Source: Allobosea robiniae
GTDB taxonomy: Bacteria; Pseudomonadota; Alphaproteobacteria; Rhizobiales; Beijerinckiaceae
NCBI RefSeq assembly: GCF_900102525.1
Contig: NZ_FNBZ01000001.1
Span: 62,001-126,000 of the forward strand
Length of the DNA: 64,000 bases
Direction of reading: 5' to 3'
Part shown: positions 7,109 through 34,421 of the stretch, one piece after another
Numbering within the stretch: the first letter of the stretch is position 1
Layout: each line of letters begins with the position of its first letter
The notes under the pieces: generated by a model
The model's input: only the letters and a program-made list of their open reading frames with translations
Databases searched by the model: none
Told to the model about the DNA's origin: nothing
Program-made: the position numbers and the translations under genes

Positions 7109-7458
7109 CTTCTCTCGTCCTGCGTGCGCACGCGTCGCGCCCTGGGCGGAAGGCGAAAGGCTGGCAAGGCGCCTGAAAAGCGCACGTCCGTGTGCCCTCA
7201 GCGTGACGGCGCCCTGAACGAGAAAAGTTGAAGCGGTCTGCTGGAGATTGCGGGCCGGGAGGAGATGAAGCAATGGAGCCTCGTCGGTTCAAAGGAAAAG
7301 GTGCGCCGCTCAAGACCCGCGACTCCACCGAGAAAGATTCTTGGCGGTGGCACTCCGCACCAGCCATTCAGGCGCTTGGACGCTCCGGCTCGAGGCGGCG
7401 CGTCATCCTGGTCGTTTTCGCTATCCCGAGCCTGGAAGCCACGGGAGGCCGTTTTTGA

Positions 7459-7505: not shown

Positions 7506-9347
7506 TCAGAGAATGAAGTGATCTCGGCTGAGGTTGATTGCCTGGTTGAGTTCGATCTGGAAGTCGGCGTGGCCGTCCCCATTCACATCGCCCTGGATGA
7601 TGGTGTGGTGGCCGCTATGGAAGTAGGACACCGAGTTTGCCTCAACCACGCTCGTCTTGCCGGCAAAGTGGAAGACTTGATCTCCCCTGACAGCAGTGTT
7701 GGCGTCGATCAGGCTGAGGTCGAGCTTGTCCGCGCCGCGTTGGAACCACTCGATCACGTCCCGGTTGCCGGCTCCCGGAAGGCTCTCTGACGGCGACCGG
7801 AAAATGAACGTGTCGGGCCCGGCGCCTCCCGACATCGTATCGGCTCCCAGGCCGCCGATCAGCTTGTCGGCTCCGCTGCCGCCGAGAAGCGTATCGTTTC
7901 CTGCACCGCCGTCGATGACGTCCGCACCGGCATTCCCGTGGATCCAGTCATTCCCGCTCGTGCCGACCATCTTGTCGGCCTTGTCGGTTCCGAAAACCTT
8001 GGCTGTCTCGACAGGATTGTCCGGCTTGGTTGCAGGATTGTCCGGCTGGGTTACGGGGGTGTCAGGCTTGGTCACCGGATTGTCCGGCTGGGTCGCCGGA
8101 TTGTCCGGCTGGGTTCCCGTACCAGGATTATCGGGTAAGGGCTTGGAACCCGTCGCCATGCCACTCTCGAAGCTCCCGAGATCCGGAGCCTTCCCGGCAT
8201 AGGAGAGCCCGACATCCTTGCCCTTGTCGACCAGCGCGCTGCCGGATGAGAGGTGAAGGAAGTCCGTCGTGGGAAGCGAGCCGTCGGCAGCACGCGCGCC
8301 ACGCGCAGCCGCATCGTTGAGGGAGACGAAGTCGTTGCTCGTCGGGGCGGTATAGTTCCAGGAGTTGTTCGACGCGCTTCCGGCACCTGAGACCGCGACC
8401 TTGCCGCTGCCCGCCGAGAGGTTGTTGACGAAGCTGTTGTGGCCAGACCAGTAGGCGTAGTTATACGCCCCGTTATTGTAGGCCGAATTATTCTGGAGAA
8501 CGCTGTCGAGGGTGGCATCGTTCTGGTCGAAGCCGTTCGACAGATTCCCCCAGGAGACGTTGTTGATCACGGTGTGGCCGCCGGATTCGGCGCCGCCCCC
8601 CGGCCGCTGGCCACCGAGCTTGAAGCCGTTGCCATCGCCCTCGGCCTTGCCCGAGGCGTCGTAGCCGTTGTTGAAAGCCCAGTTGCCCTCGATGAGCACA
8701 CCGGCGCCCTTCGTGCCATCCTGGATATTGAAGAAATCGAAGCCGTCGTCAGAATTGTTCCAGGCGCGGTTGCCGCGCAAGACGTTGCCGGCGCCGCTCG
8801 TGCTGATCTGGAAACCGTCAGCGTTGTCGCCGCTCAGGTCGTGATTGTCGTGGGAATCGATATTCTGGAAGAGATTGTTCGAGCCCGGCCCGAAGAGCGA
8901 GACGCCCTTGCCTTCCCACTGGGACAGCCGGCCGTTGTCGTGCACGTCGAGCCGCTCGATGATGTTGTTGTGGGACTCGTCACGGATCACGATGCCGCCC
9001 ATCGGCCCGCCGCGAACCTCCAGCCCGGAAATGTTGTTCCAGGAAATGCTCGACCCATCGAGCACCCAGCCGCCGGCGCCGGAGCGCCCGTAGTACTCGC
9101 TCGACGTCATGTGCGAGCCGTCCAGGATCGGCTTCTCGCCGGGGTAGTTCGTGACCGTGATCGGCCGGCCGCTTTCCCCGTCATTCGTGAGCTGGATGCC
9201 TTCTTTCAGGCTATAGACGCCACCCCGCAGATAGATGGTGTCCCCCGGCTTTGCCAGATCGTGGGCATATTGCAGGGAGGCAAAAGGCCGGTCGAGAGTG
9301 CCGGCCTGGCTATCGGAGCCAGTGGGTGAAACGTAGAAGATAGTCAT
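7506..9347 (-). CDS. RTX-tailed polysaccharide lyase, PL9-like right-handed beta-helix
   Basis: A 613-residue protein. Residues 1-405 form a parallel beta-helix beginning FYVSPTGSD. It carries the residues expected of PL9 pectate-lyase-type enzymes: the calcium-site aspartates in NADGFQ and NSDDGFDFF (about residues 174 and 200-204), and the probable catalytic lysine in GNGFKLGG (about 243). A repetitive linker (about 410-444) leads to RTX nonapeptides (GGAGNDTLLGG, GGLGADTMSGG) and a serralysin-like C-terminal secretion region. There is no Sec signal. Export is presumably by the adjacent PrsDE-type system. The likely role is to cleave the polymer made by this island. The ATG at 9347 has AAGGG upstream. 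Confidence 0.85.
   Translation of the reverse strand: MTIFYVSPTGSDSQAGTLDRPFASLQYAHDLAKPGDTIYLRGGVYSLKEGIQLTNDGESGRPITVTNYPGEKPILDGSHMTSSEYYGRSGAGGWVLDGSSISWNNISGLEVRGGPMGGIVIRDESHNNIIERLDVHDNGRLSQWEGKGVSLFGPGSNNLFQNIDSHDNHDLSGDNADGFQISTSGAGNVLRGNRAWNNSDDGFDFFNIQDGTKGAGVLIEGNWAFNNGYDASGKAEGDGNGFKLGGQRPGGGAESGGHTVINNVSWGNLSNGFDQNDATLDSVLQNNSAYNNGAYNYAYWSGHNSFVNNLSAGSGKVAVSGAGSASNNSWNYTAPTSNDFVSLNDAAARGARAADGSLPTTDFLHLSSGSALVDKGKDVGLSYAGKAPDLGSFESGMATGSKPLPDNPGTGTQPDNPATQPDNPVTKPDTPVTQPDNPATKPDNPVETAKVFGTDKADKMVGTSGNDWIHGNAGADVIDGGAGNDTLLGGSGADKLIGGLGADTMSGGAGPDTFIFRSPSESLPGAGNRDVIEWFQRGADKLDLSLIDANTAVRGDQVFHFAGKTSVVEANSVSYFHSGHHTIIQGDVNGDGHADFQIELNQAINLSRDHFIL
8014..8118 (-). repeat. Five tandem 21-bp repeats encoding a PDNP linker
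   Basis: Units begin at 8014, 8035, 8056, 8077 and 8098. Each encodes a heptad of the form T-(Q/K)-P-D-(N/T)-P-(V/A). The third unit is most diverged. They link the beta-helix to the RTX domain. Such a repeat can change copy number by slippage without breaking the frame. Confidence 0.85.
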
Positions 9348-9833
9348 AGCGCCCTTTCTCAACAGGGGAACATCCGGCGCCACGTCGCTTCGACGTGCCT
9401 CCGGCCCCTGATCAGTAAAAAGCTCGCCGTCCCCGCGGATGCAGGGCCAGTGAGCCGCGTTATGGGATTGACTCCCGCTTAAGCGGACGAGGAGGCATCG
9501 GGTGATCAACGCTGCCCGACACCGAACATCAGCAAACTCACAAGCCATGCTTGCTGATTGTTGAATGCTTACGAGTCAGGCATGCGCCACGACGTCAAGC
9601 ATCCCTCGCATGGCGAAATAGCAGCCGCATCGTCGCGACTACGATTCCATTTATTGGGTAGCCATCGGCATGGGTTGCCCTGGATGTTTTCCAGGGAGCG
9701 GAGTTATGGCTGCCTCGATCTCCGGCAGCCGAATCAAACATAGGATATGAATGCGCGGCCGTCTTGGCCTGACCCGCCATATCCGTTGAGTTTCAAGCCA
9801 AGCACGATTTGGGACAATGCGCCGCATCGCCAT
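9348..9833. other. Intergenic region with two inverted repeats
   Basis: No supported gene in 486 bases. It should hold the promoter of the RTX lyase. A perfect 12-bp palindrome CCGCTTAAGCGG lies at 9475-9486. An inverted repeat ATCAGCAA / TTGCTGAT has arms at 9528-9535 and 9551-9558. Both are candidate regulator sites. Short frames here lack good starts and protein-like composition. Confidence 0.5.
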
Positions 9834-10895
9834 TCATCGGCCGGCGCCGCGCTTCAACTCCCGTCGAAACGCCGTCGGCGTCTTGCCTGTCCATCGTTTG
9901 AAGGCCCGCACGGAAGCACTCGGCTCGCGGTATCCGAGCAGCCAGGTCACCTGCGAAACCGTCGACGTTCCGTCCCGGAGATATTGCACCGCGAGCTGGT
10001 AGCGCAGTTCGTCGAGGACCTCACTGAAGCTGATGCCCAAATCAGCCAGTCGACGCGTCAGGGTGCGGGCGCTCGTACCGAGGTCTCGCGCGATGGCCTC
10101 GACCTTTGGCGTCCCATGTCGTAGCCGCGGCATGATCGCATTCTCGACCCTGGTGCGCAGGGAGCCGGCTTCCCCAGCAGAATACGGAAACGCCTTCCGA
10201 TGCAGCCCTGCCAGGAGCTCCTTCAGAAAGTGATCACCGGTCGTCAGAGGCAGTTCTTTGGTGTCCCGAGCGAAGGCCAGAAGGTCCAGCTCCGCGCCGA
10301 AGTCGATCTGAAGGCCAAAGTAGCGCTCCATCTCGGCGACCCGGCCCGGGCGTGAATGAACCATCGACGCCGAGGTCGGCACGAGTTCGCGGCCAGTGAA
10401 CAAGCGGCATTGTCGCAACGTGGTTGTCAGCCAGAACTCGGCCTGGTGGCGATCGAGGTGCCGCTCAACCCCGACATAGCTAAGCTCAAGGGATACCCCT
10501 TCCCCGCTGCCTTCGCGGATCTTCAAGGCCTCGTTCGCGAACACCCCATACAGTTCCTGATAAGCCAGAGCCTCCGCGAGGGTTTCGGCCGAGGCCATGA
10601 TGTAGTGAACGAAGCCGAGCGCCCGCAGATCAAAGCTCTGCGCGAGGTGAAAGCCGAGGAGATCGTCGCCCAGCTCGTCGGCCGCGATATTGAGGAACGC
10701 GATTTGCCGGCGCACGGGGACGCGCTCGTCGGGATTGTCCAAGAGCGAAGGAGATAGCCCGGCCTCGATCATCCGCGGCTCGGGATCGATGCCCTGAGCG
10801 GAAAGCTGAGCCGCCGCCAGTCTGGTGAGCACCGCGACGGCGGTCGGCGCCTGCTCACGCCCGCGCTCTGTCGAAGATCCGGGCGACGGAAACAT
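9834..10895 (-). CDS. AraC-family regulator with Arabinose_bd-type N-terminal domain (OruR/ArgR-like)
   Basis: A 353-residue protein. Residues ~20-230 match the ligand-binding domain of the OruR/ToxR-type AraC subfamily (FLNIAADELGDDLLGFHLA, ALGFVHYIMASAETLAEAL). The C-terminal ~100 residues are the double helix-turn-helix (LGTSARTLTRRLADLGISF, then WLLGYREPSASVRAFKRWTGKTPTAFR). It sits at the edge of the exopolysaccharide island on the same strand as the lyase and secretion genes, so it may control them (inference). An FNR/FixK-like box lies about 90 bases before its start. Confidence 0.9.
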   Translation of the reverse strand: MFPSPGSSTERGREQAPTAVAVLTRLAAAQLSAQGIDPEPRMIEAGLSPSLLDNPDERVPVRRQIAFLNIAADELGDDLLGFHLAQSFDLRALGFVHYIMASAETLAEALAYQELYGVFANEALKIREGSGEGVSLELSYVGVERHLDRHQAEFWLTTTLRQCRLFTGRELVPTSASMVHSRPGRVAEMERYFGLQIDFGAELDLLAFARDTKELPLTTGDHFLKELLAGLHRKAFPYSAGEAGSLRTRVENAIMPRLRHGTPKVEAIARDLGTSARTLTRRLADLGISFSEVLDELRYQLAVQYLRDGTSTVSQVTWLLGYREPSASVRAFKRWTGKTPTAFRRELKRGAGR

Positions 10896-10984: not shown

Positions 10985-10998
10985 TTGACCGGTATCAA
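10985..10998. promoter_or_regulatory. FNR/FixK-type box
   Basis: TTGACCGGTATCAA matches the FNR/FixK consensus TTGAT-N4-ATCAA with one substitution, inside a longer dyad ACTTGA-N6-TCAAGT (10983-11000). It lies in the 291-bp gap upstream of the AraC gene. A TAGTTA reading on the minus strand about 27 bases from the centre could be the -10. No coding sequence was seen in the rest of this gap. Confidence 0.5.
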
Positions 10999-11186
10999 GT
11001 CGCGTGAGGCTCGGGGATGAAACGTTCGTCAAACAAAATGACGAACTGAGATTCTTGCCGCGTCCGGTTCACGCGGCGCAATTCTCCCTTCGGTCGCGAT
11101 TTTGCGCCTAATGGGAGGCAGGATCTGGTTCTCCTCCGGATGTTCTCGCGCCGAGCAATGGCTGGCTGTTGATGAGACACGCCTCA

Positions 11187-12026
11187 TCAATTCGCTATCA
11201 CGAGTTTCGCTTCGCTGGGCTTCGGTTCGGCACCAGGCCCCGGAAACAAAGCGCCGGTTCGACCACTCAGACGATATCCGATCAGACCTAACCATTCCCT
11301 CGCGGCGAGATCCAGACGCTCAAGGCCCTGACCGACGACGGTGAACGGCTGCTCAAGATCCCGAGTTCCATTTGTCTGAAAGTCGACGGGATAAGGGATC
11401 ACGCGGAAACCTACCTGCTCGAAGCTGCCCATCGCCCGCGGCATATGCCAGGCGGACGTCACGAGCAGCCAACGTTCGCCTGGGCTGGGCCGCACGAGAT
11501 TCCGTGTTTCGCGCGCATTCTCCCAAGTGTTATGGGACCGAGGCTCGATGGTCAGACGGTCCCCGGGCAGCCCGATTGTCTTCAGGTACTCGGTTGCCGT
11601 CCACGCTTCCGGCGGCAACCGCGATCCGATCCTGGAATTGCCACCGGAATAGACCAGCCGCGCAGCTGGATAACGCCGCGCGAGATCCATGAAGGCGAAA
11701 AGGCGCTCCGCAGCGCCGTTGACCGCGAACTGGCGTCGCGCTGCGGACCTCGTCAGCTCCAGCGCGCCCGACAGCACGATAATGCCGGTAATGGGGCGAC
11801 CGTCGTCGACGAAAGCAGGGAAACGTTGCTCCAGCGGAAAGATCGCCCAGTTGCCGAGGGGCAGGAGCCCAGCCGCCAGGATCCCGCAAATACCGCCCCC
11901 CGCCAGCGCCAGCCCCACGCGTCGCCAAGGGGTCGCCACCATGACGATCAAGCCGAGAAACCCCAGCATCGCGATTGCGTTTGAGGGTGCCAGCAGCTCG
12001 CCAATCTGGGACATGACATGAAACAT
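11187..12026 (-). CDS. YdcF/ElyC-like membrane protein (DUF218)
   Basis: A 279-residue protein with two N-terminal membrane segments (about residues 15-60) followed by a DUF218 domain: ITGIIVLSGALE, RLVYSGGNSRIGS, EPRSHNTWENA, LLVTSAWHMPRAMGSFEQVGF. This is the ElyC/SanA/YdcF group, linked in other bacteria to envelope polysaccharide and lipid-carrier homeostasis. It lies 36 bases after the chain-length gene on the same strand, so cotranscription is likely. The ribosome-binding site is poor, and a second ATG lies four codons downstream. Confidence 0.85.
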   Translation of the reverse strand: MFHVMSQIGELLAPSNAIAMLGFLGLIVMVATPWRRVGLALAGGGICGILAAGLLPLGNWAIFPLEQRFPAFVDDGRPITGIIVLSGALELTRSAARRQFAVNGAAERLFAFMDLARRYPAARLVYSGGNSRIGSRLPPEAWTATEYLKTIGLPGDRLTIEPRSHNTWENARETRNLVRPSPGERWLLVTSAWHMPRAMGSFEQVGFRVIPYPVDFQTNGTRDLEQPFTVVGQGLERLDLAAREWLGLIGYRLSGRTGALFPGPGAEPKPSEAKLVIAN

Positions 12027-12062
12027 GCGTTCACCAAGGCCGGCACATCACGAAGACCTCAT

Positions 12063-14294
12063 TCATGAGACGTGCAGGCCGGAGCCGCCGGAGCGCTGCG
12101 GGCGTTTCCCGAGGAACTCTCCTGTGTCGCCCCGGCGGTAGCCGGCATGAGCCTTCAGGTTCACACGCGTGAGTACAGCGAAGATTTTAGGTCTTGGCCC
12201 ACCGCTCAGCAGCGCGGGCTTCATCAGCAGTTCGATTGCGTTTGCAGCAACATCGCGGCGGGTGCTGCCCCAACGGACGGCAAAGAGAACGCCATCCACC
12301 CTTGCCGCGAGAATGCGGATACCAGCGGATTCAAAAACGCCCGGCGCGGCGATGATCATGTAGTCGTAGCGGTCACGCAGTTTGTCGAGGCTGTTTGCGA
12401 GCTGACTGCCGACAAGGGAAGCCGTGTTGGCATCTCCGATCTCATCGAGGGCGAGGCAGTCGAACCCGAGAGCGGAGTCGCGACGGATTTCCAACGAAGC
12501 GCGTTGGGCCGAGACGTCGCTATCCAGGTTCGTTTCGCTGCTGAGGCCGGTCAGTTTCACGTCCTGGCTCGGAGCGTCGGCACATATCAGCAGCACCCGT
12601 CGTTGAAAGCGGGCAGCGTACGCCGCGATGCCGACCGCCAACGCCGTTTTTCCCTCGCCCGGTCCGCTGGATGTGACTGCCAGGATCTTTCCATCGCCCC
12701 GATGCTGAATGACCTCGAGCGCCACCGCAGCGACAGCCTCGATCGCCTGGTCATAGGGCGGAGACGGACATTCGGGCAGCCGCCAGCGGCCATTGTACCG
12801 CCCCTCTTCGGGCTCCGGGACCAGGCCGATGCACCCGATTCCCAGGGTGGTCGCGAGCTCACGCTCGCTTCGTAAGCTGCGATCCATGCGCTCCAGAACG
12901 GAAGCAGCCCCCCCTCCGAGCGCCGCGAACGCGATCATCGCGGCCGAGATGTAGAGGTAAGGGCTGAGCGAACTCGGGCGCTGCGGTACCGAAGCTTGAG
13001 CCAGGATCTGAACTCCCGTCGAGCTCGGATCTTTCAGCTGCTGTTGCTGACGTAGGAGATCCCGGACGACATCGGCAGCCGTCGCAGCACGCCTTTCGAG
13101 AGTCTGCCGCTCGCGACGCTGAGCGAGGTCGGCGCCGGATGCAGCCTGCAGCGAAGCAATGCGCTCAGCGAGGGAGTGCTCCTGCAAGCGGAAGACGTCG
13201 ACATCGTGCTCCAGACGTTGCAGGCGCTGCTCGGAGTCCGCGCCAGACACTGTGGGCTTGGCTGCTATCGTTCCGGAGTTCACATCGGCTTGGCTTTCGG
13301 GCGCCGTGATCGGCGCGACGGCGCGCGCGAATTGAGTTCCAACCAGAGGTTCACGCAGAAGCGCATCGATCTTTTCCGGCGGTGCCCCCGAAAGCTGCAG
13401 CTTTCGAACCTGCTCGAGTCGCTCCTGCCGGCGCAACAGCTCGGATCTCACCAGCTCCAGCTGACGGGACGTCTCAGCGGTCAGCTCACCCGCTGCTGCG
13501 TCCGCGCTTGGCGTTCCGTGCGCCGAGACGTGCGCCCGGAGCGCCTCGTCCGCGGCTTCGAGCTCGGCCTGCGATTGGATCAGGCGATTGTCCAGCCCTG
13601 TTCGAAGCGCGTCCGCCTGCTGCTGCATCCTATCCGTCAAGCGATCGACATGCGTCTGTACGACCTGATTGACGATGATCGCTGCTCTTTCGGGGTCGAC
13701 ATCCCTGTAGCTGATCGAGATCACGTTGGAGCGCCGTTCCTGCCGGACAAGAAGGGAGTTCTTCATGGCGTCCAGGCTTGGCAGCCCGTTGGCAGCCTGC
13801 AAGGCCTCCGGAGGATTTGGACTCGGAAGAACGACGTTCTTGAGGCCTTTCCCGATTGCGACCAGCGATCCCCGCAGCCGATCCCCCAGCGTCGGGTTCG
13901 CCATCTGGGACACGGCACGCGCCGACACCGCCTTGTACTGCGGCAGGTCAGGCAATGCCTTCAGCACGTCGCGCAGGCGGGCGTCCGACATGAGCGTCGC
14001 GATGTGCGTGTCCACGACGGTCTCAAGCAGGCCGGCCGCCATCTGAGCCTGGGTGGGCTCAAACATGAACTGCGCGGTGGCCGTATAAGCGGGGGGAACA
14101 ACGAAGGCAGCGACGCCGGTCAGAAGCGTGCCGGCCAAAACAACCTTCGCGATGAAAAGCCTGCGTCGACGAACGAGATTGATGATCTCGTGGAACATCT
14201 GCTCTGGCGGCAGGGACGGCTGCGTGTCGGCCCCGAGGGCTGCGCGACTGGACAACCTCCCGATCGGGATGAACTCGCCTGGGTTCTGACTCAT
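12063..14294 (-). CDS. Chain-length/co-polymerase protein, ExoP/Wzc-like with degenerate BY-kinase domain
   Basis: A 743-residue inner-membrane protein. It has a Wzz domain with membrane segments near residues 47-68 and 455-475, a long periplasmic coiled coil between them, and a cytoplasmic P-loop domain. Walker A is intact (SSGPGEGKTAL, about 542-552). Walker A' reads LLICADAP. Walker B reads YDYMIIAAPG, where the family has an Asp followed by TPP. The C-terminus holds one Tyr rather than a tyrosine cluster. It likely sets polymer length without normal autokinase cycling (inference). It is divergent from the nucleotidyltransferase gene. Confidence 0.9.
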   Translation of the reverse strand: MSQNPGEFIPIGRLSSRAALGADTQPSLPPEQMFHEIINLVRRRRLFIAKVVLAGTLLTGVAAFVVPPAYTATAQFMFEPTQAQMAAGLLETVVDTHIATLMSDARLRDVLKALPDLPQYKAVSARAVSQMANPTLGDRLRGSLVAIGKGLKNVVLPSPNPPEALQAANGLPSLDAMKNSLLVRQERRSNVISISYRDVDPERAAIIVNQVVQTHVDRLTDRMQQQADALRTGLDNRLIQSQAELEAADEALRAHVSAHGTPSADAAAGELTAETSRQLELVRSELLRRQERLEQVRKLQLSGAPPEKIDALLREPLVGTQFARAVAPITAPESQADVNSGTIAAKPTVSGADSEQRLQRLEHDVDVFRLQEHSLAERIASLQAASGADLAQRRERQTLERRAATAADVVRDLLRQQQQLKDPSSTGVQILAQASVPQRPSSLSPYLYISAAMIAFAALGGGAASVLERMDRSLRSERELATTLGIGCIGLVPEPEEGRYNGRWRLPECPSPPYDQAIEAVAAVALEVIQHRGDGKILAVTSSGPGEGKTALAVGIAAYAARFQRRVLLICADAPSQDVKLTGLSSETNLDSDVSAQRASLEIRRDSALGFDCLALDEIGDANTASLVGSQLANSLDKLRDRYDYMIIAAPGVFESAGIRILAARVDGVLFAVRWGSTRRDVAANAIELLMKPALLSGGPRPKIFAVLTRVNLKAHAGYRRGDTGEFLGKRPQRSGGSGLHVS

Positions 14295-14384
14295 GCTGAT
14301 CGACTCTGCTTTCGTTCATCGAACTGGCGTCGCAAAGCGGGCTAGCTGTCGAGCGAATGCTATTGCGGCGCAGTCAGCTGCAAG

Positions 14385-14425
14385 TTGACCGAAATCAAGA
14401 CGAGTTGTGGCAGCGCGCCTAGCCT
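14385..14425 (+). promoter_or_regulatory. FNR/FixK-type box and -10 for the nucleotidyltransferase operon
   Basis: TTGACCGAAATCAA (14385-14398) is one base from the FNR/FixK consensus. TAGCCT (14420-14425) is a TAnnnT -10 placed 28.5 bases from the box centre, which fits class II activation near -41.5. The start codon lies at 14451. The same arrangement recurs at 20059-20099. The box lies between divergent operons and could also act on the chain-length gene. Confidence 0.5.
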
Positions 14426-14450
14426 TCATGCTCCATTGAAGGAGGCTGGC

Positions 14451-15167
14451 ATGAAGGCAGTCATTCAAGCAGGCGGCAAGGGCACGCGCTTGATGCCCTA
14501 CACATCCGTTCTTCCGAAGCCGCTCATGCCGATAGGGGCGCGGCCAGTTCTCGAGCTCCTGCTTCGATGGCTTCGCCGCAACAACATCGAGGACGTCTAC
14601 ATCACGACGGGCTACCTCGGTCACCTGATCCGCAGCTTCTGTGGCGACGGTCAGCAGTGGGGCCTCAAGATCACCTACTCACAAGAGGTCGAGCCGCTGG
14701 GCACCGTTGGGTCGCTGACGCTGCTGCGGGAGCATCTGGACGGCACCTTTCTGATGTTGAACGGTGACGTGCTGACCGACCTCAACCTTCCAGCCTTCGG
14801 GTTGGCGCACCGCAAGCATGGCGGCCCGCTGACGATCGCCACGACGGTCCGATCCACCCGTATGGATTTCGGTATCATCGAAGATCTGGAAAACCGCATC
14901 ACGAGTTTCACGGAGAAGCCCACGCTGTCCAACAGCGTGAGCATGGGCGTCTATTGCATGGAGCCCGATGTCATCAAGTACATCCCCGCGGGCATCCCCT
15001 TCGGCCTCGATGACCTGGCGCTTTGCTTGCTCGAGAAAGACGTTCCCATCCACGTCTTCAAGCATCAGGGGCTTTGGCTCGACATCGGACGCGTCGAGGA
15101 CTTCCACAACGCGCAGGACATCAAGTGGGAAGAGCGGGCGCCTTCGCTGCTCGCAGTGGCCAGCTAA
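14451..15167 (+). CDS. Sugar-phosphate nucleotidyltransferase
   Basis: A 238-residue enzyme of the NTP_transferase fold that makes an NDP-sugar from a sugar 1-phosphate. Visible motifs are the nucleotide loop QAGGKGTRLMPYT, the substrate motif PKPLMPIG, the metal-binding aspartate in LNGDVLTD, and the FTEKP motif. GGAGG lies 5 bases before the ATG. It is the first gene of the plus-strand polysaccharide operon. Substrate cannot be told from sequence. It resembles the short RmlA/ManC-like enzymes found with amino-sugar genes. A decayed partial copy lies at 20127. Confidence 0.88.
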   Translation: MKAVIQAGGKGTRLMPYTSVLPKPLMPIGARPVLELLLRWLRRNNIEDVYITTGYLGHLIRSFCGDGQQWGLKITYSQEVEPLGTVGSLTLLREHLDGTFLMLNGDVLTDLNLPAFGLAHRKHGGPLTIATTVRSTRMDFGIIEDLENRITSFTEKPTLSNSVSMGVYCMEPDVIKYIPAGIPFGLDDLALCLLEKDVPIHVFKHQGLWLDIGRVEDFHNAQDIKWEERAPSLLAVAS

Positions 15168-15217
15168 CGCCACAACTCCGCACGACGCCCGAAACACTCG
15201 TCAGGAAAGCAGCGTAC

Positions 15218-16408
15218 ATGAAAGCAGAGCCCATGCTTCTCGTCTCGGAGCCCATCCTCGGATCGCAAGAAAAGGCCGCTCTCGCCGATGTCATCGACAG
15301 CGGCTGGATCACAATGGGCGAGCGGGTGAGCAGTTTCGAGCACGCTTTCGCCGAGGCGCACGCAGCCGACGATGCTGTTTCGGTGAGTTCCTGCACAGCC
15401 GGGCTGCATCTCATCCTGCATGCTCTTGGGATCGGCCCGGGCGACGAGGTTCTCGTGCCGGCCCTCACCTTCGTGGCGACGGCGAATTGCGTGCTCTATG
15501 TCGGCGGCACGCCGATCTTCGTGGACATCGAGTCTTCGGCGCAGCCGCTGATGTCCCTCCAGGACGCCGCCGCCAAATGCACGCCCCGGACGAAAGCCGT
15601 CATCCTCGTTCATTTCGCAGGATACATGGTCGATCCCGAGCCATGGCAGGCCTTCGCGCGTGAGCGGGGCCTGATGCTGATCGAGGACGCCGCTCATGCC
15701 TCCGGGCTCCCGGGCGCCGGTGCAATCGGCGACGCCGCGGCGTTCAGCTTCTACGGAAACAAGAACATGACGACGGCGGAAGGCGGGGTGGTCCTCGCCC
15801 GCGATGCCTCCCTGCTCGACACCATCCGGCGTGCGCGAGGGCATGGGCTGACGAGCGGCACCTTCCAGCGGCGCTCCAGCCGGACGCCGATCTACGATGT
15901 GACGATGCTCGGCTTCAACTATCGGCTCGACGAGTTGAGGGCCGCCATCGGCCTCGTCCAGCTCGGCCACCTTAAAGAGTGGAATGCGAAACGGAAGATC
16001 CTGGCGGAGTCCTATCGGCGGCGCATTGGTGAGAATTGCCCCAGCGTCGCCATCCCTTTCGAAGCGCGGCGACCTTCCGTCCATCACATCATGCCGGTGG
16101 TGCTGCCGGCTTCTTCCGACCGTCAGGACGTGATCGATCACTTACGTGCGAAGGGCATCCAGACCACGATCCACTATCCGGCAATCCATCGTCTTTCCTT
16201 CTATCGCGGCCTCTATCCAGACGTAAATCTTCCCCGGACCGAGGCCTTCACCGATCATGAGCTTACGCTGCCGTTGCACCCGCGCATGGGGCTCGATGAT
16301 GTCGAAAGAGTTACATCGGCACTTGCGGACGCGCTTGGCGAGCGCGTTCCGCCGGCTGCGTTCGTAATGCGAGACAAAAGCAAGCACGCCAACCTCGCAA
16401 GTGGCTGA
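15218..16408 (+). CDS. DegT/DnrJ/EryC1-type sugar aminotransferase
   Basis: A 396-residue PLP enzyme that aminates a keto-sugar nucleotide. Conserved features are SGWITMGERVSSFE near the N-terminus, the cofactor-binding LIEDAAHASG, and the Schiff-base lysine in FSFYGNKNMTTAEGG. Then comes the family's NYRLDELRAAIGLVQL block. The ATG with AGGAAAG 8 bases upstream gives the expected family length. With the LegB-like dehydratase downstream it probably makes a 4-amino-4,6-dideoxy-hexosamine (inference). Confidence 0.92.
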   Translation: MKAEPMLLVSEPILGSQEKAALADVIDSGWITMGERVSSFEHAFAEAHAADDAVSVSSCTAGLHLILHALGIGPGDEVLVPALTFVATANCVLYVGGTPIFVDIESSAQPLMSLQDAAAKCTPRTKAVILVHFAGYMVDPEPWQAFARERGLMLIEDAAHASGLPGAGAIGDAAAFSFYGNKNMTTAEGGVVLARDASLLDTIRRARGHGLTSGTFQRRSSRTPIYDVTMLGFNYRLDELRAAIGLVQLGHLKEWNAKRKILAESYRRRIGENCPSVAIPFEARRPSVHHIMPVVLPASSDRQDVIDHLRAKGIQTTIHYPAIHRLSFYRGLYPDVNLPRTEAFTDHELTLPLHPRMGLDDVERVTSALADALGERVPPAAFVMRDKSKHANLASG

Positions 16409-16421
16409 GGAGTTCTTTCAC

Positions 16422-17111
16422 ATGAACGGACAAGGCTTCTTGGGACTGCCGGTCGCCGAAACGGCGCAAACATGGCTCAGGCGAGCCGCCGATATTCTAC
16501 TAGCCGGCGCTGCGTTGTTTTTGCTGGCGCCGCTCATGCTGCTCATAACGATCGCCATATGGCTGGAATCCGGGCAGCCAACGCTGTTCTGTCAAACTCG
16601 ACTTGGACAGGGCGGCCGGCGTTTTCGTATGTACAAGTTCAGGAAGTTCCATGCAGACGCCGGCCAGGCAGGCTGCCCGTTGACGCTCGAGCAGGACCCC
16701 CGGATGACCCAGGTCGGGCGCCTGCTTATGAAGACGAAGCTCGACGAGTTGCCGCAGTTCTGGAACGTGATCAAGGGCGACATGGCGATCGTCGGACCAC
16801 GGCCGGAGAGCCTTGCTTTCGCGGATTGCTTCCATAACGGCTGGGAAGAGTTGCTCAGATACAAGCCCGGCCTCGTCGGCCCGTGCCAGATCATATTCCG
16901 GAACGAGGCCGCCGCCTTCCCGAAAGGTGCCGACGTCAACGAGTTCTATCGCACCGTCGTGTTTCCGCTGAAGGCGCGCATCGACCTCGACTACTTCCGC
17001 AGCAGAAGCCTGGCATCGGATGTCGTGATCATGATCAGGAGCTTCCTGGCGATCTGCGGCTGGGCCTCGGTCGCGAGCGCAGGCCTCAGGCAAGTCGAAC
17101 GCCGCGCCTGA
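16422..17111 (+). CDS. Undecaprenyl-phosphate phosphoglycosyltransferase (priming enzyme, PglC/WcaJ-C type)
   Basis: A 229-residue monotopic phosphoglycosyltransferase. It has one membrane segment (about residues 22-45), then RLGQGGRRFRMYKFRKF, the catalytic DE pair in TKLDELPQFWNVIKGDMAIVGPRP (seen in part), and a YKPGLVGP motif. It transfers sugar 1-phosphate to the lipid carrier and so starts each repeat unit. The start was chosen at 16422 because GAGGAG lies 8 bases before it, overlapping the previous gene's stop. It lacks the large N-terminal domain of full WcaJ proteins. Confidence 0.92.
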   Translation: MNGQGFLGLPVAETAQTWLRRAADILLAGAALFLLAPLMLLITIAIWLESGQPTLFCQTRLGQGGRRFRMYKFRKFHADAGQAGCPLTLEQDPRMTQVGRLLMKTKLDELPQFWNVIKGDMAIVGPRPESLAFADCFHNGWEELLRYKPGLVGPCQIIFRNEAAAFPKGADVNEFYRTVVFPLKARIDLDYFRSRSLASDVVIMIRSFLAICGWASVASAGLRQVERRA

Positions 17112-17152
17112 GCCGGTGCGAACCTAGAATGTCCAGTCCAGGAGGTCATGCC

Positions 17153-18160
17153 ATGTCCTATGATGGTGCAAAGGTGCTTGTGACGGGCGCCGACGGCTTC
17201 ATCGGCTCGCATCTCACCGAGGCGCTCGTGAATTGCGGCGCCAGGGTCACGGCTTTAACCCTCTACAACTCCTTCGACAGCCATGGCTGGCTGGACGAAA
17301 TCCCGGAGGCGACCAAAGGCCGGCTCGATCTCGTCCGCGGCGATGTCCGCGACGCGGCCTTCATCTCGCGCGTCGTGCCGGGTCAAGACATCATCTTCCA
17401 CCTCGCAGCGCTGATCGCCATCCCGCACTCCTACGCCGCCGCGCAGACTTATGTCGAAACGAACATCCTCGGAACCCTGAACATCCTCGAAGCTGCCCGC
17501 CAGAGTGGGACGGAGCGGATCGTCCATACCTCGACAAGCGAGGTGTATGGAACGGCGTTGAAGATGCCGATCTCGGAAGAGCACCCGTTGCAGGGCCAAT
17601 CTCCCTATTCGGCATCCAAGATCGGTGCCGACATGATGTCGGAAGCTTTTGCCCGGTCATTCGGTTTGCCTGTCGTGACGCTGCGTCCTTTCAATACATT
17701 TGGTCCACGGCAGAGCGAGCGGGCGATCATTCCGACGCTCATCCGACAGGCTCTGGATCCGAACTGCGCCGCCATACGGGTCGGCGACACGACGCCGGTG
17801 CGCGACCTCACCTTCGTGGAAGACACCGTAGCTGCCTTTTTGATGGCGGGATCATCCCCGGATCTGGAGTTCGGCCGAGCCTACAATGCTGGAAGCCAGC
17901 ACGGCGTGACAGTGGCCAACCTGATCGACCTGGTGCTCGAACTCTCCGGCACTTCCAAACCGGTGGTCCAAGAGGGCGTCCGGATGCGACCTGCCAACTC
18001 GGAAGTGCGTGCGCTTCTGGCCGACTGCAGCCGCTTCGCGGCGGTTACGGGCTGGCAGCCACGGACCGGCCTGCGCGAGGGCATCGGGCGTACCACCGAA
18101 TGGTGGCGGACCCGTCTCGCGATGGGCCGGGTGCGCTCGCAGAGCAATTTCATGACCTGA
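17153..18160 (+). CDS. NAD-dependent sugar 4,6-dehydratase, LegB-like (extended SDR)
   Basis: A 335-residue short-chain dehydrogenase. It has the Rossmann motif TGADGFIGSHL, the active-site TSTSEVYGTA and YSASK, and the LegB-type phrases YNSFDSHGWLD and LRPFNTFGPRQSERA. LegB enzymes convert UDP-GlcNAc to the 4-keto-6-deoxy sugar; the assignment of this substrate is inference. GGAGG lies 7 bases before the ATG. With the upstream aminotransferase it forms a plausible two-step route to an amino sugar for the repeat unit. Confidence 0.88.
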   Translation: MSYDGAKVLVTGADGFIGSHLTEALVNCGARVTALTLYNSFDSHGWLDEIPEATKGRLDLVRGDVRDAAFISRVVPGQDIIFHLAALIAIPHSYAAAQTYVETNILGTLNILEAARQSGTERIVHTSTSEVYGTALKMPISEEHPLQGQSPYSASKIGADMMSEAFARSFGLPVVTLRPFNTFGPRQSERAIIPTLIRQALDPNCAAIRVGDTTPVRDLTFVEDTVAAFLMAGSSPDLEFGRAYNAGSQHGVTVANLIDLVLELSGTSKPVVQEGVRMRPANSEVRALLADCSRFAAVTGWQPRTGLREGIGRTTEWWRTRLAMGRVRSQSNFMT

Positions 18161-18221
18161 TCTCACCGCCCTGCCTGGACCGCCGCGCGGCGCCGGCTCC
18201 AGAACCGATACGAGGCTCTCG

Positions 18222-19490
18222 ATGGGACATCCATCTGCGCGCAAGGGCTGGGCAGCGACACTGCTCATGGCCGGCATAGCTTTGCTCTGGACGCATGGAG
18301 CTTGCCGCGCTGAATATCTGCTCTCTCCCGGCGACGTGGTGGAAATCGCCGTCGCGCCAATGCCGGAGCTGCGGCAGCGTATGCCGGTGCAGCCCGACGG
18401 AACCATCATCATCCCAATGCTAGGGGCAGTGATGGCGGCAGGATCGGCCCCGCAGGTGCTGCAGGACCGGGTCGAGACAGCCTTCGCAGCGAAAATCCTC
18501 CGCCAGCGAATGCCCGACGGGCGCGAGCGGATCGTGTTGCTTCAGCCTGGCGATGTCACCACGGCAGTCGTCGAGTACCGGCCCATCTATGTGAGCGGCG
18601 ACGTGCTCAACCCGGGGCAGTACGCCTACCGGCCACAGATGACGGCGCGCCATGCCATTGCTCTCTCAGGCGGCCCGAGCACAGTACGGGGCCGTCCCGG
18701 GCAGTCAGGCGTCGAGATCGCGGAGGCGGAGCGCGAATACCGAACTGCGACAAGCGCGCTTGCCAAGGAGCATGTTGTCTCCTGGCGGCTTGCCGCGGAA
18801 CTCGATGGATCCGAAACGATCAAGGAACAGCCCCTCGGGTACCTGTCCATATCGGCCGCTTCGCTTGCCGACTTTCTGCGCGTCGAGACCCGTTACCTGC
18901 AGGTTCGCCTCAAGGAAACCAAGAGCGAGCGGGCCTATCTGGAGAGTATGGTGCGACAGGCCGGCGAGCAGATCGAGACTCTCACCACGCAAGTGCAGGG
19001 GGAGCAGAGCGGCCTCCAAGCCGACATGGCAGAGCTTGATCGCGTGAACAAACTCTTCGGCACCGGCAGCTTGCCGAGCCCGCGCGTCACGGATAGTCGC
19101 CGGGCCGTCCTGCTGTCGTCGACCCGGCGCCTTCAGACGATTGCGAACCTGACCCAGGTCAAGCAACAGCGGGATGAACTGCTTTGGCGCCTGGACAAGG
19201 TCGACACCCAAAGGCGCATCGACGTGCTACGCGAAAGCAGGGAATCGCAGCTGCGTATGACCGAGCTGAGAGCGCGGCTCGATGGCGCGACAGAGAAGCT
19301 GCGTGTGCTTGGGCAGATGGTCGTCCTCGAAACGGGCGCCAACGTCGCGCGGCTGGGCGTCACGATCATCCGTAAAGCTCGAACGAACTGGGATCGCATT
19401 CCCGCGTCCGAGGACACCGAGCTGATGCCGGGCGACACCGTCGAAGTCGTGTTCCGGCGTGAGGATGCTTCGACGGCAGCGGTGCAGTGA
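18222..19490 (+). CDS. Polysaccharide export periplasmic/outer-membrane protein, ExoF-like (OPX)
   Basis: A 422-residue protein with a signal peptide (cleavage likely after GACRA, residue ~30). It has a Poly_export domain starting EYLLSPGDVVEI, an SLBB-type segment (PIYVSGDVLNPGQYAYRP) and a long coiled coil at about residues 215-370. This is the ExoF arrangement of rhizobial succinoglycan export rather than lipoprotein Wza; no lipobox is present. It should connect the chain-length protein to the outer membrane. GAGG lies 6 bases before the ATG. Confidence 0.9.
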   Translation: MGHPSARKGWAATLLMAGIALLWTHGACRAEYLLSPGDVVEIAVAPMPELRQRMPVQPDGTIIIPMLGAVMAAGSAPQVLQDRVETAFAAKILRQRMPDGRERIVLLQPGDVTTAVVEYRPIYVSGDVLNPGQYAYRPQMTARHAIALSGGPSTVRGRPGQSGVEIAEAEREYRTATSALAKEHVVSWRLAAELDGSETIKEQPLGYLSISAASLADFLRVETRYLQVRLKETKSERAYLESMVRQAGEQIETLTTQVQGEQSGLQADMAELDRVNKLFGTGSLPSPRVTDSRRAVLLSSTRRLQTIANLTQVKQQRDELLWRLDKVDTQRRIDVLRESRESQLRMTELRARLDGATEKLRVLGQMVVLETGANVARLGVTIIRKARTNWDRIPASEDTELMPGDTVEVVFRREDASTAAVQ

Positions 19491-19704
19491 ACCCGCTCCG
19501 GAGACCTTTTCTTCACGCGAACCGGTGTCCGCTGCGCTCGAAAATGCTCTCGCGATGACATGGCTTCGGTCGCACTGATCCACCGGTGCGACAAAGCAAA
19601 GCCGGCGTCAGTCGCTGTGAACCGCCTCCGGGAAACCCGGCGCGGTTCAGATCTCCTCTCAGAGCATGCTTGGCTGCCGGCCGCACGCACATGGGCGCCT
19701 GCCT

Positions 19705-19926
19705 TTACTGGATCGGGCGCTCCCTGGTGCGAGCCTCGTTCGCTATGTCAAGCATTGCCTCAAGCTGGGCGAGCGTCGCTGGCGAGAAGATCAAATTCAT
19801 GATCTGGCCGCCGGACATCTCAAGGCTGATCATCGTTTCGCCTCGAGGGGTGGCCGTTATCGCGACCGCCTGGACATCGACGACATCAAGGTCGATCTCC
19901 GGCAACAAGATCTGCTTCTGCCCCAT
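19705..19926 (-). CDS. Small conserved-looking protein, function unknown
   Basis: A 73-residue acidic protein on the strand opposite the polysaccharide operon. It contains VDVQAVAITATPRGETMISLEMSGG (seen in part) and a C-terminal helix LAQLEAMLDIANEA. AGGGG lies 4 bases before the ATG, and the composition is protein-like with no membrane segment. No family was recognised. A 13-bp inverted repeat GTGGGGGCCCCAC lies just upstream at 19942-19954. The flanking bases 19491-19704 show nothing. Confidence 0.55.
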   Translation of the reverse strand: MGQKQILLPEIDLDVVDVQAVAITATPRGETMISLEMSGGQIMNLIFSPATLAQLEAMLDIANEARTRERPIQ

Positions 19927-20058
19927 TAGTCCCCTACCGTCGTGGGGGCCCCACTGCGTCAGAGATGCGCTTTCCGATCTCGTGCTTTTCGGCCGTGCCG
20001 TCGGCTTCGAGTTGTGCTTCCCGACTTCCGGACACTATTGGCAGAACCTTTCAGCGAA

Positions 20059-20099
20059 TTGATCCTCATCAAGACTGCGAAGCCCGGCCGACGTAGGGT
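20059..20099 (+). promoter_or_regulatory. Perfect FNR/FixK box with -10 before the polymerase operon
   Basis: TTGATCCTCATCAA (20059-20072) is an exact TTGAT-N4-ATCAA match. TAGGGT (20094-20099) starts 35 bases after the box start, exactly the offset seen at 14385/14420. It would drive the remnant gene and the polymerase-flippase-ligase genes. This gives the second half of the plus-strand cluster its own promoter. Confidence 0.55.
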
Positions 20100-20126: not shown

Positions 20127-20390
20127 ATGAAAGCTGTCATCCAAGCAGGTGCCCGGCGCAAGCGGCTGATGCCCATCAGCGCCAAGCCTGTGCTGGAGTT
20201 CCTGCTGCGCTGGCTACGACGATACAACGTCGACGCCATGAACCGGGAAGCGGGCAAGAGCGCGCGCGTCTTTGTGGCCCGCCACCATGACTTGGCGGCT
20301 CACCTCGGCTACCTGCCCGTCGCCGTGGACATGCCCCGCCGCCGTGCATCGCGCGGAACCAGCGGGCCGCCTCGGGAGGTTACGCGGTGA
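20127..20390 (+). pseudogene. Decayed 5' copy of the nucleotidyltransferase gene
   Basis: The first ~38 codons match the start of the gene at 14451: MKAVIQAG, RLMP, then KPVLEFLLRWLRRYNV against RPVLELLLRWLRRNNI. The glycine-rich nucleotide loop is changed (GGKGT to ARRKR). Eleven residues (YTSVLPKPLMP) are missing exactly between two LMP repeats. The remaining ~49 codons are unrelated. GGAGG lies 6 bases upstream. The frame ends in a GTGA overlap with the polymerase gene, so it may survive as a leader for coupled translation. It cannot be an active enzyme. Confidence 0.75.
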
Positions 20391-21802
20391 CGGCCCGAAC
20401 GGCGCGGCAATCGCTCGTGCATGTCGCGTCCTGGGTCGGCGGTGCCGGTCTCCTGTCGCTCGTTGCCCTCGCGCTCCTGATCTTGAGGAACCCATCCGTC
20501 CCCGTAATGCTCATCGGCTTGGCCGTCGTGGCGACGATCGGCCTGCTGCTGCTGCGAAACCCGCTTGCCGCGCTCCTGCTCGCCGCGTTCGTGCTCCTGC
20601 TGCCGCCAGGGGACCTTCGGGTGGAGGGGATCTACATGCTCGCCAGCAACGGCACGGTCGTCGCAGCTCTTGGGATCTGGCTCGTCCGGGCGCTGAGCGG
20701 GAACGAGACGGTCAAATGGAACCCCACTTGCCTTCTCCTCGCGCTGTACATCGCATGGGGGCTCGTGACGCTGCTCTGGGCGCCGGATCTCGTCGAAGGT
20801 CGCCGCAAGCTGATCGCCTGGACGTTCAGCTTTATCCTGCTGTTTTTGATCTGCAACGAGGTGAGATCGCTGCCGGCAGTAGACCGCTTCATGCGGATGC
20901 TGAGCTTGATGGGCTGGCTCATGATTCTTTGCGGGATTTATACGGCCCTGTTCACCGATTTCGTGTTTGGAACCAGACTGAAAAGTTTCAACATGAATGA
21001 GAATACCTTGGGCGTCATGCTGATCATGGCACTTCCCGGGGTCATCTGGCCGGTGATGCGAAGTGACGGGCCTCGCCGGAGGTCCATGCTCATCCTGGCA
21101 ATAACCTACATGCTTTGCGCCGTGGCGTTGATCGCACTCAGCGGATCGCGAGGAGGCGCGATTTCGGTCGGCCTCCTGTTGCTGATGCTGCTGTTCTTCA
21201 GACCCGCGCGGAAATGGGCCGTCGGCGGCGTCGCGCTCATTCTTTGTCTGTTCCTCTTCGCCCCGTTCCTCTTCGACACCCTCATTCAAAGGGCTGTCGA
21301 AGGAGATGGCGGCGAGCTCGGCGGACGGTCTGTCTTGTGGGAAGCAAGCCTTCTGTTCATGCGCGACCATCTGCTGACGGGAGCCGGCATCGGCAACGGC
21401 CCCTTCAGGCTGCACCCCTACATCGCGTCGCTGACCAGCGAGGTCAACCACCGCACGGATCTGCCCAGCCACCAGCCGTTTCTCGAGGTCGGTGTGGACA
21501 CGGGTCTGGTCGGGCTGATCATCTACGTCTGCATGATCGGATCCGCGATACGGAGTTTCGTGCGCTCCCGCTCCTGCTGGTTGCTCTCTCCTTCCTGTCC
21601 GGACGGATACTACTTGACCGTGATCGGAGCCACGGCGGCGTACGGGTCCACATGGCTCAAGGCGGGAGGGTTGGAAAACCACGCCAGCCTCATCGTGATA
21701 CTCGCCCTGCTCCTGATCCCGTCCTTAGTGCAGGAGGCCGACGATCGAAGCGCACAGGAGGGCGGCCCCTGGCTGTCGAAGCGTCGCCATGACCGCGGCT
21801 AG
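20387..21802 (+). CDS. O-antigen ligase/Wzy-type polysaccharide polymerase
   Basis: A 471-residue integral membrane protein with about ten to twelve hydrophobic segments and the Wzy_C-type motif ALSGSRGGAISVGLLLLM. A larger periplasmic loop follows (GRSVLWEAS, HLLTGAGIGNGPF, HQPFLEVGVDTGLVGL). It is expected to polymerise lipid-linked repeat units at the periplasmic face. The GTG start overlaps the remnant gene's stop (GTGA). The last 14 bases overlap an upstream in-frame ATG of the flippase gene. Confidence 0.88.
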   Translation: MTARTARQSLVHVASWVGGAGLLSLVALALLILRNPSVPVMLIGLAVVATIGLLLLRNPLAALLLAAFVLLLPPGDLRVEGIYMLASNGTVVAALGIWLVRALSGNETVKWNPTCLLLALYIAWGLVTLLWAPDLVEGRRKLIAWTFSFILLFLICNEVRSLPAVDRFMRMLSLMGWLMILCGIYTALFTDFVFGTRLKSFNMNENTLGVMLIMALPGVIWPVMRSDGPRRRSMLILAITYMLCAVALIALSGSRGGAISVGLLLLMLLFFRPARKWAVGGVALILCLFLFAPFLFDTLIQRAVEGDGGELGGRSVLWEASLLFMRDHLLTGAGIGNGPFRLHPYIASLTSEVNHRTDLPSHQPFLEVGVDTGLVGLIIYVCMIGSAIRSFVRSRSCWLLSPSCPDGYYLTVIGATAAYGSTWLKAGGLENHASLIVILALLLIPSLVQEADDRSAQEGGPWLSKRRHDRG

Positions 21803-21812
21803 CGAGGGGGCG

Positions 21813-23363
21813 ATGAACGCGCACGCAGCCGCCCCGCCGCGTGACGAGGCCAGCGGGCGGTTCGTCGTCAACGTCGGCAGCAGCCTCGTTTACGTCGTGC
21901 TGAACACCGGCATCATGTTCTGGTACATCCCTTTCCTGCTGAAGCATCTCGGGGTTGCGGCCTACGGGATGGTTCCCCTGTCGTCCTCCTTGGTCATGTT
22001 CGCGATGATCGTATGCGAGGGGGTGAACGGTGCGATCTACCGCAACCTGGCGATCGATCTGAACCGGGGAAATCTGCCCGCCGCGCAAAGGACGTTCAAC
22101 AGTGCCGTGATGCTGACGATCGCGGTCAGTTGCTTCCTGCTGGTTCCGATGGCCCCGGCGGTTTGGCTCTTTCCCCAACTCTTCGAGGTGCCGCCGGGCC
22201 TCGAGGGCGCGGCGCGGTTCCTGCTCGCGGGCTCCTTCTTCACCGCCCTGACATTCCTTGTCGGAAGCCCTTTCGACGCATCGAGCCTGATCACTCACCG
22301 GTTCGACGTCCGCAACGCCATTCGGTCCGCGGTTGCCTTGAGCAGGGTCGGGATCGTGGCCCTGTGCTTCCTTGTCTGGCCGGCGAGCCTCCTGCACGTC
22401 GGCCTCGGCCTGATCGCCTCCGCCCTCCTCGGCCTGGGCAGTTGCGTGATCGCGTGGCGACGGCTGACCCCGCAGTTGCGCCTGCATCGCGCAGATGTGG
22501 ACCCCCACCACTTCCGGCCGCTGTTGAATTTCGGCGCCTGGTCGGCGGTGAACACGGCCGGAATGCTGCTGCTCATGCAGGTCGACCTCCTCATCGTGAA
22601 CGCATTGTTCGGTTCAACCATGACCGGTCGTTACGGCGCATTGCTTGCTTTCGCGGTGCTCATGCACACGCTGGCCGAGGTGGTCATACCGATTTTCAGC
22701 CCGATGATCATGGCCCGCTACGCCATCGGCGATGTCACGGGTGTGCGCAGACTGCTGGAATCCGCCGTCGGCTTTCTCGCCTTCGGGCTGGCCCTGCCGG
22801 TCGGGCTCCTCTGCGGGCTCGGCCGCCCACTCCTGTCGCTGTGGCTCGGGCCCGATTTCGCCGAGTTCGACATGCTCCTGGCAGTCCTCGTGGCTCATCT
22901 GGCGGTGAATCTGGCGGGCCGGCCGATCGGTTACCTCCTCACCGCGCACAACAAGGTGAAGCAGCAGGGTTTGGTGACGCTGGTGCTCGGCGTCGTGAAC
23001 ATTGGGCTGGCAGTCGCGCTCGCCCTCTGGGCCAATTGGGGCGTGCTCGGCATCGCGGCGGCGGCCGCGATCGTTTGGACCTTGAAGAACACGCTCATCC
23101 TTCCGGTATACGCCGCACGCGTGCTCGGCTTGGACTGGTGGGCGTTCCTGCCCCGGCTCGCGGGTGGAGCTGCGGCGGTGCTCGGGATAGCGCTGGCTGG
23201 CAGGGCACTTGCCGCCGAATGGCCACCGCTCGATTGGATCAGTCTCGCGGCGATGGCCGGTGCGATATCGGCACTATACTTGATCATACTCATAGGTTTC
23301 ATCATCCGCCCCGACGATCGCAAGCTGATCTCGCGGCTCATACTTCGGAGGGCACATGATTAA
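21813..23363 (+). CDS. Wzx-type polysaccharide flippase (MATE/MOP superfamily)
   Basis: A 516-residue protein with about 12-14 membrane segments in two halves. It begins with the charged-hydrophobic pattern GSSLVYVVLNTGIMFWYIPFLLKHLG typical of polysaccharide_synt proteins (seen in part). It moves lipid-linked repeat units across the inner membrane for the neighbouring polymerase. GAGGGG lies directly before the chosen ATG; an in-frame ATG at 21789 would add eight residues but has no ribosome-binding site. The gene ends eight bases into the next one. Confidence 0.9.
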   Translation: MNAHAAAPPRDEASGRFVVNVGSSLVYVVLNTGIMFWYIPFLLKHLGVAAYGMVPLSSSLVMFAMIVCEGVNGAIYRNLAIDLNRGNLPAAQRTFNSAVMLTIAVSCFLLVPMAPAVWLFPQLFEVPPGLEGAARFLLAGSFFTALTFLVGSPFDASSLITHRFDVRNAIRSAVALSRVGIVALCFLVWPASLLHVGLGLIASALLGLGSCVIAWRRLTPQLRLHRADVDPHHFRPLLNFGAWSAVNTAGMLLLMQVDLLIVNALFGSTMTGRYGALLAFAVLMHTLAEVVIPIFSPMIMARYAIGDVTGVRRLLESAVGFLAFGLALPVGLLCGLGRPLLSLWLGPDFAEFDMLLAVLVAHLAVNLAGRPIGYLLTAHNKVKQQGLVTLVLGVVNIGLAVALALWANWGVLGIAAAAAIVWTLKNTLILPVYAARVLGLDWWAFLPRLAGGAAAVLGIALAGRALAAEWPPLDWISLAAMAGAISALYLIILIGFIIRPDDRKLISRLILRRAHD

Positions 23364-31906: not shown

Positions 31907-31976
31907 GTCTAATCCTTCTGCGTGATTGGCAGGGTTGAGAGAACGAATACCTTGGTTGCGATCAAGGGATCGCAAC

Positions 31977-34252: not shown

Positions 34253-34421
34253 GCGAGATCCTCGATTGATCGATACCCCCAACATCAATAATAGCTGATT
34301 TCTGTCAATAAAACAATTCTAGGGTGCAGTTAGGTTAACTCGCCGCTGCGCCGTTGGTTTCACTCATGACCTGACGCGCCGACGCCGGTGGATCCCGGCC
34401 TTGGACCCTGGAGGATTTCCA

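Follow-up and report, generated by a model that had tools for sequence, protein, structure and literature searches.

Exopolysaccharide clusters vary greatly among strains, and the control of a newly gained cluster is usually unknown. The locus analyzed here raises this question in a concrete form: its exopolysaccharide island contains palindromes of the FNR/FixK type together with a gene for a Crp/Fnr-superfamily protein, and we asked whether these elements form a local regulon and which protein reads the palindromes. We assign a probability of roughly 80% to the reading that the protein encoded at position 31977, a member of a FixK-like clade, is a cluster-situated activator of the island that would act through class II boxes of the form TTGAY-N4-RTCAA.

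The window (the whole 64-kb stretch of DNA that was analyzed, G000:C17:62001-126000) belongs to a 5.28-Mb genome designated G000, and the island spans ~4 to 36 kb of it. Regulation and secretion are represented by an AraC-type regulator (9834-10895, minus strand), an RTX β-helix lyase-like protein (7506-9548, minus strand), an ABC transporter with a HlyD-type adaptor resembling type I secretion systems (4032-7273, minus strand), and a Wzz-type protein. The synthesis genes encode a nucleotidyltransferase, a DegT aminotransferase, a sugar transferase, an export protein, and Wzy; an asparagine-synthase-type amidotransferase, four glycosyltransferases, and a flippase-like protein (weak match) are also present. 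A second β-helix lyase-like protein is encoded at 34401-35897 on the plus strand, so that two such proteins, one of them with an RTX tail, share the island with type I secretion genes; they are perhaps polymer-trimming lyases. At 16883-18279 two ORFs overlap in different frames, and codon-position GC favors that at 16883-18160, while that at 17233-18279 also gives tblastn matches in relatives.

The preliminary description had named three boxes lying within one base of TTGAT-N4-ATCAA, and a pattern scan of the window confirmed them as TTGACCGGTATCAA at 10985-10998 (one mismatch), TTGACCGAAATCAA at 14385-14398 on the plus strand (one mismatch), and TTGATCCTCATCAA at 20059-20072 on the plus strand (no mismatch). 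The first is located 90 bp before the start of the AraC-type gene, which is the first minus-strand gene after it. The second precedes a sugar nucleotidyltransferase gene (14451-15167, plus strand, PF00483), the first gene after the box, and the -10-like element TAGCCT (14420-14425, plus strand) begins 35 nt from the box start. The third overlaps the stop codon of an ORF without a Pfam match (19586-20062) and precedes, on the plus strand, an ORF holding a truncated nucleotidyltransferase copy (20127-20390) and the gene for a Wzy-type polymerase/ligase (20387-21802), followed by the flippase-like gene (21789-23363) and a further gene (23356-24717); here, too, a -10-like element, TAGGGT (20094-20099, plus strand), lies 35 nt from the box start. 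Two weaker plus-strand sites were found beyond these three. CTGATTTCTGTCAA at 34295-34308 precedes the second lyase-like gene, with TAGGTT (34331-34336) 36 nt from its start; a scan of four same-genus islands for boxes with one or two mismatches plus a -10 element gave five matches, of which only this one seemed meaningful. TTGGTTGCGATCAA at 31952-31965 lies just before the crp gene and overlaps a perfect 9-bp inverted repeat (31955-31976, GTTGCGATC-AAGG-GATCGCAAC) that ends right at the crp start codon and whose transcript may form a hairpin looped by AAGG (z -1.5). At 1.4 kb past the window end, a perfect, seemingly intergenic TTGATCTAAATCAA was observed at G000:C17:127372-127385 (locus L006), with TTATCT 35 nt from its start.

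The frequency of these sites was evaluated by a pattern count over the whole genome and by sampling 400 kb in 20 stretches. With up to one mismatch to TTGAT-N4-ATCAA, five sites occur in the window as compared to 0.73 expected, and none of 100 shuffled sequences contained five or more. Genome-wide, however, there are 114 matches to the same loose pattern in 5,279,103 bases, so that ~1.4 sites are expected per 64 kb; the excess in the window is modest by itself, and clustering of the loose pattern was rejected as a stand-alone proof. The strict pattern TTGAY-N4-RTCAA was more discriminating, with three sites in the window, all intergenic according to a rough gene caller, versus a single, intragenic site in the 400 kb sampled elsewhere in the genome. 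Enrichment thus holds for the strict sites and is modest for the loose ones.

The protein encoded at 31977-32624 (plus strand) was assigned to the Crp/Fnr superfamily, and described as FixK-like, by profile, sequence, and helix comparisons. Its scores exceed the cut-offs for PF00027 (30.5 versus 27.5 bits), PF13545 (50 versus 27), and PF00325 (31 versus 21), whereas the NCBIfam FixK equivalog model NF050806 gives 87.2 bits against a cut-off of 300. In agreement with the preliminary description, the recognition helix reads E-T-A-C-R, with the Glu and Arg of proteins that bind this type of box, and the first cysteine is residue 90, so the N-terminal cysteines of the FNR [4Fe-4S] cluster are absent. 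The low-oxygen or redox-linked signal that had been proposed on the same occasion is supported by none of our results. A predicted structure was weak (mean pLDDT 66.6, four sequences) and was used for the overall fold only. Positions F68 and D72 align by eye with His86 and Asp90, which are described as pocket residues of FixK2 in the accessible text of PMC12937710, and are occupied in the island proteins by F or Y and by D, S, or T, respectively, making a cyclic-nucleotide ligand look unlikely. Redox control through C90 or C173, prompted by Cys183 of FixK2, is a guess from analogy. Downstream of crp are genes for a NarL/FixJ-type response regulator (32744-33400, plus strand), which adjoins it, and an HWE kinase.

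To define the occurrence of this regulator, named genomes and genome samples were searched. Three loci in named genomes encode relatives: Rhizobiales bacterium 2SD (69% identity), Bosea sp. BK604 (70%), and Methylobacterium dankookense (45%). By profile, an orthologue was found in 4 of 67 genomes of the genus, in 3 of 397 genomes sampled from the order (G000 counted), and in 7 of 248 genomes of one family (f36), two of which were already among the three of the order sample. Among the 15 of 20 matches listed from plasmid records there was no close regulator, the best identity being 34.5%. A total of 12 regulator-bearing islands was obtained, chosen by presence of the regulator and not of the box; they are not independent, as the regulators of G673 and G768 are identical and those of G166 and 2SD nearly so. 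Residues E170, T171, and R174 are invariant in all 12 proteins, as is C90, whose position holds no cysteine in the four FNR/FixK-like proteins used for comparison; where these four have a Ser in the helix, 11 of the 12 have Cys (C173 in the 31977 protein). In a tree that held no reference FixK and left out loci L021 and L026, the 12 island proteins grouped together with moderate support (88/99), apart from the FNR and FixK-like proteins of the order and from the eight included relatives of 31-38% identity. In 8 of the 12 islands, crp has a response-regulator gene no more than 2.8 kb away, an arrangement that recalls FixJ-FixK pairs by analogy only.

Across 753,431 bases, the 12 islands contain 51 TTGAY-N4-RTCAA sites, of which 48 lie no more than 25 kb from crp. 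The 800 kb of background yielded a single strict site, located in the 400 kb from G000; the 160 kb from G166 and the 240 kb from four f36 genomes had none. The background stretches followed a grid of round coordinates, set after the whole-genome site list was known, and excluded BK604, 2SD, G440, G660, G768, and M. dankookense. Over 60 permutations of the half-site, TTGAY (51 in islands, 1 in background) stood well apart from the next patterns, TYGAT (14 and 9) and YTGAT (13 and 2). No strict site was found in 40 kb each of the exopolysaccharide regions of G160 and G196, which are without the regulator, or in the 2.7-3.6-kb loci of ten relatives of 31-38% identity from the family sample. Each of the seven f36 islands carries strict boxes in the 450 bp preceding its RfbF-like gene, a methyltransferase gene, and a GT4 gene (estimated start codons), and TAnnnT stands at an offset of 35 in three, seven, and six of these cases, respectively; a strict box precedes the secretion ABC gene in only one of the seven. 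By box type, the four same-genus islands have 8 TT, 5 mixed, and 0 CC sites, and the other eight have 2 TT, 12 mixed, and 24 CC sites.

Within the genus, many of the window's exopolysaccharide genes surround the regulator in BK604, 2SD, and G166. All three relatives keep the nucleotidyltransferase box, each time as a perfect TTGAT-N4-ATCAA. In the four orthologous promoters the distance from the start of this box to the start codon is 63-66 nt, and that to the first base of TAGCCT or TAACCT is 35 nt. Perfect boxes also occupy the place matching 10985 before the AraC-type gene in BK604 (8797, TAATCT at offset 34) and G166 (2961, TACCCT at the same offset), the corresponding place of 2SD being outside the stretch compared; the window box at 10985 has no TAnnnT at offsets 34-36. 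TTGATGYTCGTCAA precedes a gene related to the second lyase-like gene in BK604, 2SD, and G166. Upstream of the RfbF-like gene (three same-genus genomes) and the methyltransferase gene (two) no strict site was found; a one-mismatch box precedes the RfbF-like gene in same-genus relatives. The boxes are thus conserved in related strains at matching promoters.

The box at 20059 appears to have a different history. Two nucleotidyltransferase pieces lie beyond it (78% identity over 60 columns and 73% over 74), within a truncated gene, and the blastn match of this copy sets in at the ribosome-binding site; of the DNA ahead of that site, only the box and the -10 element, at the same 35-nt spacing, are recognizably shared. 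The Wzy genes that follow are arranged differently in relatives. These sequences are most simply explained by a duplicated promoter that has come to drive the Wzy genes behind it, and box 20059 is apparently a captured promoter.

Spacing between box and -10 element indicates how the boxes may work. TAnnnT at offset 35 from the box start was found 27 times, at 24 of the 51 strict sites when both directions were considered, as compared to 3 each at offsets 34 and 36 and a mean of 0.43 (maximum 4) elsewhere between offsets 14 and 99. The 51 sites are not independent of each other, so that the Poisson probability calculated for them exaggerates the significance, but the spike recurs in several genera and upstream of several genes. 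Class II activators bind with the box centered ~41 bp before the transcription start and overlapping the -35 region, and the spike at offset 35 places the box center at that distance from the predicted start. By their TAnnnT spacing, the sites are therefore predicted class II activator-dependent promoters. TTGACC was considered as a σ70 -35 element and was ruled out, as the -10 sits 29 bases beyond it. Together, conservation, enrichment, and promoter geometry provide good support for the local regulon of the preliminary description and extend it to other islands. In the mechanism that we propose, the 31977 protein, belonging to a FixK-like clade found within exopolysaccharide islands, would bind TTGAY-N4-RTCAA boxes, presumably as a dimer, ~41 bp before the transcription starts and would then help RNA polymerase at the island promoters. 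It would act on the nucleotidyltransferase genes through box 14385, on the Wzy genes through box 20059, on the AraC-lyase-secretion group through box 10985, and, perhaps, on the second lyase-like gene through box 34295.

The reader of the boxes had been left as either the island's own protein or an FNR or FixK protein encoded elsewhere, and the distribution across genomes favors the former. If the genome's FNR or FixK read the boxes, the island would belong to a low-oxygen regulon and the local protein would have a minor role or none. G000 does encode an FNR orthologue with cysteines (G000:C5:1920-2621), and a perfect TTGATCCAGATCAA at G000:C5:2704-2717 (locus L001), ~80 bp before that gene, suggests FNR autoregulation on the basis of its sequence and position. 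FnrL sites of all three box types are in print (accessible text of PMC2908626), including one identical to box 14385 that is listed there as a predicted rather than a bound site, as are FixK2 sites of mixed type (in the part of PMC9104804 consulted), so the box sequence alone cannot decide the reader. Against general FNR control, the boxes concentrate near crp orthologues, and box type differs between the island sets although G560 and G440 have FNR orthologues (60-61%). G160 and G196 have a strong FNR orthologue, as do G000 and 2SD (71-100% in these four), and have neither an orthologue of the island regulator nor the box. Conversely, G166 keeps perfect boxes and yielded no FNR orthologue at 1e-25. 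At least seven HTH_Crp_2 matches at 1e-6 were obtained in G166 (150 of 184 candidates scored); judged by eye, one has a Crp-type helix (R-E-T-V-N-R), five lack E-x-x-x-R, and the sole FNR/FixK-type helix among these seven is that of the island protein (L-E-T-A-C-R). G166 is rated 100% complete, yet neither an FNR nor a FixK orthologue was found among the candidates scored, unlike the situation in G000, G160, G169, and G196 of the same genus; FNR may have been lost recently. Of 21 nucleotidyltransferase orthologues, the box is present in the four with the regulator in their island, and the other 17 have no box, allowing two mismatches, in 300 bp; one of the 17, in G440, has the regulator on another contig. 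These 17 genes, with identities of 65-70%, constitute a separate group, so the 4-versus-17 contrast may reflect one evolutionary event. Overall, sole reading by FNR or FixK from elsewhere appears unlikely. Joint use, in which the local protein would add an island signal to general FNR control, deserves more credence, though we consider it on the doubtful side. Besides the shared box forms, it draws on the FNR orthologues of G000 and 2SD and on a second FixK-like protein with the same helix type in BK604, where the FNR match is only 38%; each of these genomes thus has a second possible reader, only G166 separates the two candidates, and there joint use is not needed.

That the local protein acts as a repressor rather than an activator is decidedly improbable. 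The box-like sequence at 31952 overlaps the crp start region, as a repressor site might; no one-mismatch box precedes crp in BK604, 2SD, or G166, however, and a role of this site in crp autoregulation is doubtful. The class II spacing and the lack of a good -35 element at these promoters favor activation. Chance matches in AT-richer intergenic DNA, to which the abundance of the loose pattern in the genome would lend some color, are scarcely credible given the enrichment of the boxes and their conserved place and spacing; this argument holds for 14385, while 10985 and 34295 rest on less.

A bolder reading, which we advance tentatively and at rather less than even odds, goes further: a portable, self-contained FixK-type regulon may travel with islands between families of one order, the oxygen-sensing Fe-S cluster of FNR swapped for another signal (perhaps thiol redox at C90/C173) and its boxes shifted from TTGAT-N4-ATCAA to TTGAC-N4-GTCAA, with a duplicated promoter captured by a rearranged polymerase operon in the present island. 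The island apparently comes equipped with a FixK-type activator of its own and with matching promoters. The case also calls for caution, since TTGAT-N4-ATCAA boxes can be read by several regulators and are not proof of oxygen control; in the present case, comparing which genomes have and which lack each element helps to tell the candidate readers apart. No account of this regulator or box set appeared in the titles and abstract beginnings searched, a body of literature that leaves most subscription journals outside.

Several known systems bear comparison. The closest solved sequence to the 31977 protein is FixK2 of Bradyrhizobium (PDB 4i2o; E value 1.2e-14, low identity). The two share the helix residues E, T, and R and, according to the accessible portions of PMC9104804 and PMC12937710, the lack of an Fe-S cluster and the box type. 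They differ in that the 31977 protein sits in an exopolysaccharide island and scores 87 bits against the 300 of the NCBIfam FixK model, and in alignments read by eye neither C90 nor C173 coincides with Cys183 of FixK2. FNR, FnrL, and FnrN recognize the same box type as that of the island, whereas the 31977 protein lacks their N-terminal cysteines, has Cys for the helix Ser, and reaches 47-48 bits with their models (cut-offs 300 and 228). By role, the protein can be likened to Bcam1349 (BerA) of Burkholderia cenocepacia, a CRP/FNR-family activator that binds exopolysaccharide-cluster promoters and responds to c-di-GMP (as presented in the available text of PMC3584217). A similar likeness of role applies to CRP/FNRKx of Komagataeibacter, a CRP/FNR protein tied to the cellulose operon, for which the accessible main text of PMC4686702 gives no TTGA-form box.
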